From contig NZ_AP018553.1 of assembly GCF_003967175.1 (NCBI RefSeq), forward strand, positions 2,281,982 through 2,345,981: a stretch of 64,000 bases of DNA. Reading direction: 5' to 3'. This document shows, one piece after another, positions 2,578 through 34,023 of this stretch. Source of the stretch: Sulfodiicoccus acidiphilus (GTDB taxonomy: Archaea > Thermoproteota > Thermoprotei_A > Sulfolobales > Sulfolobaceae). Under the pieces are notes generated by a model. The model made no database searches, had not been told where the DNA came from, and was given only the letters and a program-made list of their open reading frames with translations. Numbering within the stretch: the first letter of the stretch is position 1; the number at the start of each line of letters is the position of its first letter. A program made the position numbers and the translations under genes.

Positions 2578-4242
<1,665 letters not shown>

Positions 4243-5193: not shown

Positions 5194-5519
5194 CCGATCT
5201 CTCTCCGCCCTGGAAGGGGTTCTACTGCAAAGGTGTCGTGGTTACCACCGTCGGTTCGGGATCGCGTCTCCGGTGAGCGGTGGGGGGGGGGGAACTCTTC
5301 CACGTGAAAAGGGGACTTTCGTCGCTGAGCTCCAAATCTCTTGAGGAGGGAATAAGGAAGAATGTTGTTCGTCTCTCTCCCTAAGTCCCGTTGAGGCCCC
5401 AGTGGAGTTGGTGGAGAGACGTCGTTGGTATTGCTGAAAAATATCTAAAAACCATATATTAAATAAGGGAGACTATCCATCCCAGCTGGGGGCTTTCCGC
5501 CACCTCAACCTCAGCTAAG
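5194..5519 (-). mobile_element. MITE-like tnpB-element derivative, copy C
   Basis: A non-coding stretch of about 326 bp. The right-end motif CTCTCCGCCCTGGAAGGGG lies at 5201-5219. The interior shares GACTTTCGTCGCTGAGCTC with copy B at 33.8 kb, and a left-end remnant (CATCCCAGCTGGGGGCTTT) lies near 5478-5496. It ends in CCTCAAC, ten bases, then GTAA (5520-5523), the same arrangement as copy A. It contains an unusual run of 11 G at 5282-5292. It lies between the CoA-binding gene and the E1-like gene and probably carries no protein gene. Confidence 0.7.
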
Positions 5520-12003: not shown

Positions 12004-12295
12004 TTAGCTTCCTCCTTGCCCTGAAAGTCTTTCCTCCAGGAGTTTCGTCGTTCCCGCCATCAGTTCGGGTCTAGTTTGGTGGACAGTAGGTGGCCCAGAT
12101 GACCCACTCCATTCGAAATTAACGAAGGAACCTTCATCGATTTCATCTGATTCTGTCAAAAGGTAGGATTGGGGGTTGATCCTTCCTCAGTTTCGTCGAG
12201 TCTGGAGGAACGTCATTAGCTTCAATAAGATCGTACATAAATAGTGATATATAAATCGTCGTTCCCGCCCTAAAGGGCGGAGCTTTCATTGACTT
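12004..12295 (-). mobile_element. MITE-like tnpB-element derivative, copy D
   Basis: A non-coding element of about 292 bp. The right end reads CTTCCTCCTTGCCCTGAAAG (from 12009), followed by TCGTCGTTCCCGCCATCAG, also found in copy A. The interior CCTCAGTTTCGTCGAG (12183-12198) matches copy A exactly. The left-end hairpin CCCGCCCTAAAGGGCGGAG is perfect at 12264-12282, and GTAA follows at 12296-12299. It lies 198 bp past tRNA-Arg and directly upstream of the thioesterase gene. The rest of 11807-12442 shows nothing but AT-rich sequence and the thioesterase promoter. Confidence 0.75.
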
Positions 12296-24336: not shown

Positions 24337-25551
24337 AGGTTCACTAAGCGAGTATGTAACCTAGAAAGCAAAATAAGTTTCGACGAGGAAATGTTGAGCA
24401 GGGAGGGGGAAGGAAACTCCAGTCCTACCCTCTCCCCCATTTCATCCCGGCTACGCGGTCGAGAAACACCTCTCACAGGACCATAAAAAGTTTGATCTTC
24501 GTAAACTTGCTCTACTCATAGCCTTAGGTCGGTGTGTTTTATCTTATGCCTTGACTCATACTCTTAATTACTTCTAATTCAGTCACGAGCGCTCCTCTAC
24601 AAGGAATTAACACACTCACCCTTAATTCCTTGAGGTCCGACGAAGGATATCAGACTTCCATCACCTCATTTAATCAAATTGAGGAAGTTTCTCCAACACT
24701 ACGTCGTCTTCAATGCTCCTATCAATAACTTTACAAACCTTCGATCTCCACCCTCGTGATCAGTGCTGATCATCAAATAGCGATCAAAGACTTCAACGAG
24801 TCTTTCAGTGACTCAACAAACCTTCCTAAGCCCCATTTTCCTGGAAGAGATAATAGAAGGAAATCCGACTTCTTCCTCGCCCTGGAAGGGTCCCTTTAAG
24901 GTGATTCCCTTCGTCGGTACTGAGTTACATTTAGCATCTGGTGAGCAAATGAGCGGGTCGGAAGCACCACCCCCTTCTCATGTGGTGAGGATCCATAGGT
25001 GATCTGGATCCAGCAAGTTAGGAGATAAGTAAGCCGGTACCCCTTCTTAAATCCCACTGAGTCTTGTAGGAGTATGGGGAAGCACCTTCAGGATCGCCGA
25101 AAAATTCTCCATGAATCAGCCACTTAACTCCTTCCATAAGGGCTCTCCATCCCATTGAATCCTCGTCTTCGTAAGGCAAGGGACTTTCCTAAATCTTCAA
25201 TAGGTTGTCTCTTGGGTGTTTCCACGAACTTGATAACTCCAGATCAATGGACCGTATGATGGACCGTACGTCTTAACTGGCCGCTCCTATTTTCTACCGT
25301 TCTTTTCTGTTGCTCCAGTTGCAATCCTTAAGGGGAATTTACCCACTATAACTTCCGGACTTGATTCTCCAGCTAAGTTATTTGCTCTTATTTGTGGAAT
25401 TTGGTCTCCTCTGTTTCTCTATCTCTCTTCATCGGAATTCCTGCTCCCATATAACGCCTGCCTTAAAACTATGCCCCTGAAAATTTACGTCTGGAGACTC
25501 GGCCCAAGATCGAGGGTTAAAGATAAATAGTAGACCTATATGGTGAATGAT
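24337..25551. other. 1.2-kb intergenic region with repeat remnant
   Basis: No supported gene. The stretch includes the partial MITE copy F (listed separately). An isolated minus-strand frame of about 56 codons at 25017-25190 (GWRALMEGVKWLIHGEFFGD...) has no start in good context and no recognised relative; it could be a gene tail or chance. The rest is AT-rich, and TATA-like sequence lies just before tRNA-Met. Confidence 0.5.
24865..25020 (-). mobile_element. Partial MITE/tnpB right-end copy F
   Basis: The right-end motif GACTTCTTCCTCGCCCTGGA begins at 24867. It is followed by the TTCGTCGGTACTGAGTTACAT and GAGCGGGTCGGAAGC segments that parallel copies A and G. The segment GTGAGGATCC...GATCTGGATCC has a counterpart in copy G at 32.55 kb. 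No left end was found, so it is a fragment. Confidence 0.45.
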
Positions 25552-25640: not shown

Positions 25641-25892
25641 TCGCTTGGCTATATGTGATTTAGTTGCCAGTTAAGGAGAGTCGTAAGTACATGGTGACGC
25701 TGAGCAGCATGAGCTTCTTGCTCCCTCAAGAGTTCCTCCTATAGGCTTGGGTTACATCCCACTTCCCAGAGTTGCATAATATCCGTACAAGTGTGCATGG
25801 ATCAAGGTCGCCAGAAGGGATGGACAGTCAAGCGTTAGATTTGGAGAATATCCATCAGTGAGAACGGAGGTAGTTAGTACTTTAAGCCCGTA

Positions 25893-26236
25893 CTGACTTC
25901 CTCCCCGCCCTGGAAGGGACGAGGGTTCCCTCCCAGAGGGCTCATCGTTCCCACCATTGATTCGGGTTTACATGTCTCGTTTGGTGGGCAGTCGAGTGGA
26001 TCAGAGATCCACTCCCATCTGAAGAGGAGGGGACTTTCACCCATTACGTCTAGTCCCTTAAAGGAAATTGAAGCCACTGCTTGCTCCTCCCTCAGTTTCG
26101 TCAAGCACTCGATCGAGCTGGGGAGGAGCGTCGTTAGTACCACTAAGAGAAATTTCACAAAGAAGTATAAATATGAGGGGGCTATCCGTCCCCGCCGTGA
26201 AGGGCGAGGCTTTACGCCCCCTCAACTCCCGACTTT
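25893..26236 (-). mobile_element. MITE-like tnpB-element derivative, copy A (best preserved)
   Basis: A 344-bp element with both ends clear. The right end CTTCCTCCCCGCCCTGGAAG begins at 25898, and the left-end hairpin CCCCGCCGTGAAGGGCGAGG lies at 26189-26208. GTAA follows at 26237-26240. On the minus strand its right third translates to DPLDCPPNETCKPES, parallel to the last codons of the tnpB gene ([16 protein letters not shown]), so the element still carries the tnpB 3' end. Its interior (CTCCCTCAGTTTCG) is shared with copies B and D. No complete gene is present. Confidence 0.82.
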
Positions 26237-26324
26237 GTAACGCGTATCCGCTTCGTAACAGCTTTAAAGTACACCTAAATTAAAAGAAAAAGACACTTAT
26301 TAGTGGTAACACGTAAGAGCTTCC

Positions 26325-32433: not shown

Positions 32434-32605
32434 TGACATCTCACCGCCTTGGAATTGTTCCCTCCAAAGCAGTCCTCAACCTTGGGTTCGGGTTTATATC
32501 CAGCGTGGAGCGGGCAATCTGATGGTTCAGAGTACCATCCTCTCTAGTGATGATACATAAGCGATCTGAATCTGGTGAGTGGGAATATTAGCTCACCAGT
32601 GCCCT
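32434..32605 (-). mobile_element. Partial MITE/tnpB right-end copy G
   Basis: Degenerate right end (CTCACCGCCTTGGAATTG) followed by TTGGGTTCGGGTTTATATCC, parallel to TTGATTCGGGTTTACATGTC in copy A. It continues through GAGCGGGCAATCTGATGG and a segment that aligns with copy F. No left end was found. It lies 68 bp from tRNA-Val, between that gene and tRNA-Gln; the remaining spacer is empty. Confidence 0.45.
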
Positions 32606-33689: not shown

Positions 33690-34023
33690 CTGGCTTACTC
33701 CCCGCCCTGGAAGAATCATCCTCCAAGGGGCTCATCGTTTCCACCTTCGGTTCTGGATTACATCTATCGAGGGGGCAGTCGGGTGGCTTAGAGGATCCCC
33801 CACTTGAATAGAGGGGGGACTTTCGTCGCTGAGCTCTAATCCCTGTGGGAAGAGAGATGAAAGAGAGATGCTAGTTGTTCCTCCCTCAGTCCTATTGAGC
33901 ACTCGGTCGAGCTGTGGAGGGGCGTCGTTGGTATCGCGGAGAAAACGTCTGAAAAACCATTCTATAAGGGAGCTGTCCCCCTCCCTTATAGAAGGGGACT
34001 TTCGCCCCTCAACCCCCATAAAG
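33690..34023 (-). mobile_element. MITE-like tnpB-element derivative, copy B
   Basis: 334 bp. The right end ACTCCCCGCCCTGGAAGAAT begins at 33697. The interior shares GACTTTCGTCGCTGAGCTC with copy C and CCTCCCTCAGTCC...GAGCACTCG with copy A. The left end is CCCCCTCCCTTATAGAAGGGG near 33977-33997. After CCTCAAC there are ten bases and then TTAA (34024-34027), where the other copies have GTAA. It lies upstream of the ArsR gene. Confidence 0.75.

Follow-up and report, generated by a model that had tools for sequence, protein, structure and literature searches.

Structure of the Locus

The window (the whole 64,000-nt stretch of DNA that was analyzed) carries on its minus strand a 344-bp gene-less element at 25893–26236, inserted 3′ of the tetranucleotide TTAC (26237–26240), its left border and a candidate TAM. 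From this border inward, and all on the minus strand, the element has a left-end hairpin with AAAG in front, CCTCGCCCTTCACGGCGGGG (26190–26209), recognized from sequence and alignment, the outer stem of that hairpin (26174–26182 with 26216–26224), and a TATA-like box, TTTATA (26166–26171; TTTAAATA in relatives), that is common to the tnpB promoter region. A leader follows with two helices, helix 1 (GCTCCTCCC/GGGAGGAGC, 26083–26129) and helix 2 (GGGACT/AGTCCC, 26030–26057; GGGATCC/GGATCCC in other genera). The predicted omegaRNA core (25947–26018), a homologue of the tnpB 3′ end, contains helix 3 (26006–26014 with 25994–26002) and helix 4 (25982–25988 with 25950–25956). The element closes with a right-end hairpin, CCTCGTCCCTTCCAGGGCGGGG (25903–25925), and a TCAG right border (25893–25896). 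The adjoining right flank, TACGGGCTTAAAGTACTAAC (25873–25892), is unique to this copy and is predicted to supply its guide sequence.

The extent of the element is supported by 38 aligned copies with unique flanks, which begin after TTAC and end at TCAG and differ in sequence on both outer sides, and by a copy (L002) that sits inside an amidohydrolase-like gene. When the unit is excised, starting behind TTAC and including TCAG, this gene regains its reading frame, and the restored frame is gap-free at the junction relative to seven relatives, one of them in the same genus. Insertion was thus precise and free of duplication, a signature of IS200/IS605 elements. Neither terminal inverted repeats nor target duplications, the criteria for classical MITEs, were found in the copies, so the "MITE" of the initial annotation is better called a palindrome-associated transposable element (PATE), the type described from haloarchaea such as Haloquadratum (PMC3119063). 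The initial annotation had also confined the element to 25893–26040, which is too short; the unit runs to 26236 and abuts TTAC at 26237–26240.

Across the complete 2.35-Mb genome, the 148-nt stretch at 25893–26040 has 41 matches, far more than chance would give, comprising 40 copies and one 35-nt fragment; in 33 of the 40 copies this stretch is full length and at least 91% identical. Of the 38 copies whose left end could be delimited, 37 are bordered by TTAC, a fraction that is not independent of the search, which used TTAC-type anchors. Left ends of intact tnpB elements, including L034, are also bordered by TTAC. In 35 of 38 delimited copies, TTAC, the TATA-like box, and GTCAG are all present, and every full copy has hairpins at its left and right ends (subterminal palindromes). 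Judged by its sequence, the element is a nonautonomous IS200/IS605 derivative of the PATE type.

The minus strand of the window also has matches of 18–35 bits to a tnpB omegaRNA model, at 33738–33805, 24904–24976, 12050–12112, 32457–32543, and 5241–5305. Of these, at least 33738, 12050, and 5241 retain degraded left-end and leader sequence of this element family.

Orientation of copies is organized in blocks. All 10 copies past 1.88 Mb share one orientation and all 12 at 1.076–1.50 Mb have the opposite (runs test, p = 0.008), which is expected if insertion follows the direction of replication fork movement. Because the copies are young, selection within the genome is poorly measurable. Positions 98–296 (199 in all) contain 2 of the 17 private mutations, seemingly fewer than expected, but this is a post hoc count among young copies in which some differences at the left tip may be alignment artifacts, and it was given no weight as evidence.

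Relationship to tnpB Elements

The last ∼126 nt of the element match the 3′ end and right end of tnpB. Relative to the intact tnpB of L034 and to a tnpB remnant in the window, identity is 81–82% across the final 74 tnpB nucleotides and 93% across the right-end hairpin, the value found across right ends of tnpB elements of the same lineage; relative to L070, an intact tnpB of another genus, it is 89% over 126 nt. The claim of the initial annotation that copies keep these two parts of tnpB is borne out by these identities and by a score of 85.8 bits to a tnpB-derived covariance model (see below). The left end is likewise common to the element and to tnpB elements, in the order TTAC, GGCGGAAAGCCTCGCC, and GGATAGCCCCCTTATATTTAAATACTTCTTTG, followed by ATG in tnpB elements or by the leader in the gene-less element. 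As left end, TATA-like box, and right end are all of the tnpB type, the unit corresponds to a tnpB element with its gene replaced, and the comparison indicates that it arose from a tnpB element by replacement of the nuclease gene.

This kinship is at the nucleotide level. The peptide parallel first quoted in its support, DPLDCPPNETCKPES, is out of the tnpB frame; in that frame, the element reads GSGSLIHSTAHQTRHVNPNQW and the tnpB stop codon is gone. The tnpB that had been cited for comparison, at 3033–3090, is a relative, as proposed, but the locus itself is no functional gene: tnpB at 3033–3440 is the tail of a pseudogene (about 3036–4169) with internal stops. The end of this pseudogene holds a homologous omegaRNA core (3026–3097, minus strand; 91.1 bits with the covariance model).

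A Conserved RNA Fold

The covariance model, R1, was built only from the right ends of real tnpB genes. In the window copy it matches 25947–26018 with 85.8 bits (E = 3.6e-18), and it recovers 40 of 40 copies with 44–92 bits and 90 sites genome-wide at E ≤ 0.01. Covariation was assessed in two alignments, one of 33 tnpB right ends and one of 22 distinct gene-less copies from several genera and families, both limited to a 72-nt core that aligns without gaps and stops short of the terminal hairpin, since complete right ends of the short and long forms fall out of register. Helices 3 and 4 are paired in 93.9% of cells in the tnpB set, versus 46–60% when the partner is slid by one to three columns, and in 94.3% of cells in the gene-less set, versus 32–49%. 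Their covariation scores also exceed those of all 500 shuffles, but sliding is the stronger control since it keeps relatedness and shuffling does not.

Compensatory changes are readily seen in helix 4, which is CCCCTCA/TGAGGGG in most tnpB genes and CCCACCA/TGGTGGG in the window copy, with CCCCGCA/TGCGGGG, CCTCCCA/TGGGAGG, and CGGGCA/TGCCCG elsewhere. In helix 3, two positions pair poorly in distant families. Helices 1 and 2 of the ∼120-nt leader, in which no homology to tnpB was detectable, covary as well, with 91.6% of cells paired versus 44–65% when slid. Without guidance, RNAalifold also recovers helix 3 and the helices of the leader, and the minimum free energy (z = −4.3) was counted in favor of an omegaRNA gene. 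No Rfam family matched the element at threshold. Taken at the level of sequence, an RNA fold has been kept across genera with compensatory changes, and the comparison of right ends by covariance model that had been proposed at the outset came out in its favor, with all copies recovered and compensatory changes in both omegaRNA helices.

These patterns bear on whether the tnpB 3′ end was retained merely as part of a right end that TnpA requires, with its hairpins under constraint because they act as single-stranded DNA in transposition, and without any function as RNA. IS200/IS605 transposition does require end hairpins on one DNA strand (PMC8612924), and recent copies with a blockwise orientation bias are what lagging-strand transposition is expected to leave. 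Against such passive carry-over, the covarying core lies upstream of the terminal hairpin, two further covarying helices are found in a leader without detectable homology to tnpB, and the tnpB TATA box is retained even though transposition does not need it. Moreover, loop letters between helices are conserved as much as in tnpB genes, and where only one partner has changed and pairing persists, the result is a GU pair as read on the tnpB-sense strand. We consider this explanation unlikely.

Distribution and Neighboring Observations

Full-length relatives with 75–82% identity are present in other genera, which we take to be Sulfolobaceae from the named virus and plasmid hosts of the relatives and from the sequences themselves. 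Other families of the order have separate gene-less units with the same omegaRNA core (L074, L077, L081, L109, and L113). These units have a left end, a TATA-like box, and a different leader with a long stem of its own. Two viral records contain the element too, with a full-length copy in that of Sulfolobus tengchongensis spindle-shaped virus 4 (OP999031.1:181–529; L182) and a near-complete copy on a viral contig (L165:5889–6207). The former is annotated there as overlapping hypothetical proteins.

Two observations concern rearrangements at copies. In other genera, an IS110-family element (transposase at L068:1922–2872; PF02371/PF01548) is inserted exactly at GGGGAG in the omegaRNA right end. 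Such insertions are found in the right ends of both gene-less copies and tnpB genes (L068, L096, L097, L102–L104, L116, and L118), and in L069 an IS110-family insertion lies in leader helix 1. From the positions of these insertions, the IS110-family element looks as if it targets the GGGGAG motif and thereby disables the guide. In genome G146, the junction sequences of L066 and L098 are reverse complements of each other, which suggests that two copies recombined and thereby inverted a piece of the chromosome.

Guide Geometry and a Candidate Nuclease in Trans

At the level of sequence, copies have the geometry of a guide RNA: a fixed right border is followed by a unique flank, and the left-border motif joined to that flank constitutes the target. 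The predicted guide of the window copy begins with TACGGGCTTAAAGTAC. TTAC followed by this guide is absent elsewhere in the genome, allowing up to three mismatches, and the only genome match is the occupied junction, in which TCAG stands in the place of TTAC. This is the arrangement needed to spare an occupied site and to cut an empty one. Fold, TTAC/TCAG geometry, and empty site thus agree with the original proposal that each copy could, which is not to say does, make a guide RNA directed to its own insertion site.

The same proposal described the copies as guides without a nuclease. None is encoded in cis, as stated, but the cell is not without one because the search for an intact tnpB of this lineage, suggested at the same time, identified a candidate in the same genome. 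One intact TnpB of the lineage was found (P0001, C1:1030134–1031276); other matches are partial or contain stops, and intact TnpBs of other lineages are also present. P0001 matches PF07282 at 60.5 bits, has a RuvC triad (D182/E272/D353) that is invariant in 24 relatives, and has a predicted structure that matches ISFba1 TnpB, ISDra2 TnpB, and Cas12f (Foldseek matches 8iaz and 8exa). Disorder is predicted for its last ∼18 residues (pLDDT < 50), yet their codons, which lie in the omegaRNA, are conserved, a combination that fits constraint on the overlapping RNA and not on the protein.

The P0001 element has TTAC as its own left border. Its own right end is of a short form (107 nt), whereas copies have a long form with an extra 22-nt hairpin, and the long form accompanies intact TnpBs of other genera (L070 and L119). 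This difference is a caveat to a role of P0001 in trans, although recognition of both forms by P0001 is plausible, these TnpBs being ∼79% identical by sequence. The sole intact Y1 TnpA found in the genome (C1:430993) is part of an element whose TnpB is a different one, and copies would be mobilized by TnpA in trans. In a genome of another family, G040, the omegaRNA model has at least 25 matches; a TnpB of the P0001 lineage was not found there at E ≤ 1e-30, only a few other TnpB pieces.

We suggest that the PATE-type transposon doubles as a stand-alone omegaRNA gene that is served and maintained by P0001 in trans, and we put the probability of this reading at about 0.7. Transcription of the element is predicted to start ∼25 nt past the TATA box and to read through the right end into the flank; it is plausible because the TATA box is shared with tnpB and RNAs of the same kind have been published (PMC4247193, PMC10544981). 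P0001, as the single intact TnpB of the lineage, would bind these RNAs in trans. Excision of a copy from one of the daughter strands by a Y1 TnpA would leave TTAC and the flank behind, and TnpB loaded with the RNA of that copy would cut the empty site, such that repair templated by the sister brings the element back. An occupied site would escape cutting because its guide-matching flank is preceded by TCAG, not TTAC. By cutting empty sites in trans, one nuclease would maintain dozens of guide-only elements.

RNA from the element might instead soak up or silence TnpB. Forty guide copies against one intact TnpB of the lineage would indeed dilute the nuclease, and the leader adds helices 1 and 2, to which no role has been assigned. 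We regard this as improbable, even more so than retention for transposition, as the scaffold keeps the core and right end of functional tnpB elements and places the flank in guide position, and dilution as such needs no TTAC/TCAG geometry, although this arrangement could also be due to transposition alone. A small protein in the peptide frame of the initial annotation was rejected as having next to no likelihood: the frame is open over 70–115 codons in most copies, but its start codon is not conserved, with none upstream in the window copy. Past DPLDC, the frame is thrown off by indels of one base in the right-end hairpin, it is broken upstream in L015 and L049, copies share no stop, and conservation tracks RNA pairing.

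Relation to Known Elements and RNAs

Cas12 descends from TnpB, a nuclease whose gene ordinarily comes with that of its omegaRNA. In the 2021 omegaRNA literature, IscB reportedly has stand-alone guide RNAs that act in trans; these resemble the present elements in having guide loci apart from the nuclease gene and differ in nuclease family and organism. In ISDra2 (PMC8612924) and SisTnpB1 of S. islandicus (PMC10640517), as here, the right end together with the 3′ end of tnpB is the source of the RNA, the flank is the guide, and the TAM is the left border. In contrast, both have the nuclease gene in cis and are bordered by TTGAT or TTTAA/TTTAT, whereas the element of the window has no nuclease in cis and is bordered by TTAC. 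The S. islandicus TnpB cuts in vitro (PMC10640517).

Haloarchaeal PATEs (PMC3119063) are similarly short, lack a transposase, have subterminal palindromes of the IS605 type, cause no target duplication, have lost the core, and occur in many copies. Compared with them, the present element also retains a promoter and a complete covarying omegaRNA and has a conserved structured leader; an RNA product is not discussed in the passages of PMC3119063 consulted. The right part of a PATE on the haloarchaeal virus HRTV-DL1 is strongly transcribed (PMC10544981). It too is a gene-less element on a virus, but of another lineage, and it was not read there as a TnpB guide.

A link to a described RNA family comes from the right-end hairpin. 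The consensus of HgcC (Rfam RF00062) ends at its 3′ side in this same hairpin followed by GTCAG, and HgcC coincides with tnpB right ends at L111:1506–1638 and, in G000, at C1:1030081–1030191 and C1:432576–432701. The tnpB right end of L111 passes the HgcC gathering score (51.3 versus 50); the window copy scores 16.2 bits with this model, below the gathering score of 50. HgcC RNAs were detected before omegaRNAs had been described, and these coincidences of position and structure suggest that HgcC may be an archaeal omegaRNA family. HgcC RNAs of Thermococcus (T. kodakarensis) are transcribed, with three starting inside transposase genes and two lying elsewhere (PMC4247193).

PATEs (PMC3119063) and TnpB guides (PMC8612924) are thus already known. 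In the open-access literature, the scope of the search, no paper was found that unites them as guide-only elements served in trans by TnpB.

Implications

More tentatively, and with somewhat less than even odds, one TnpB may run a multiplexed set of transposon-borne guides, about 35 complete promoter-plus-omegaRNA elements that are programmed by their insertion sites. Under this broader proposal, several families of the order would have evolved the design independently, and it would have hitchhiked on archaeal viruses, cutting viral genomes free of the element, and HgcC would belong to the same class.

The element family offers a direct test of a TnpB serving guides in trans, and it suggests a function for archaeal HgcC RNAs. 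If the proposed reading is true, it would explain why PATE-like elements retain more than their ends. It would also represent a natural step from a self-guided transposon to a nuclease that uses many separate guides, like CRISPR.
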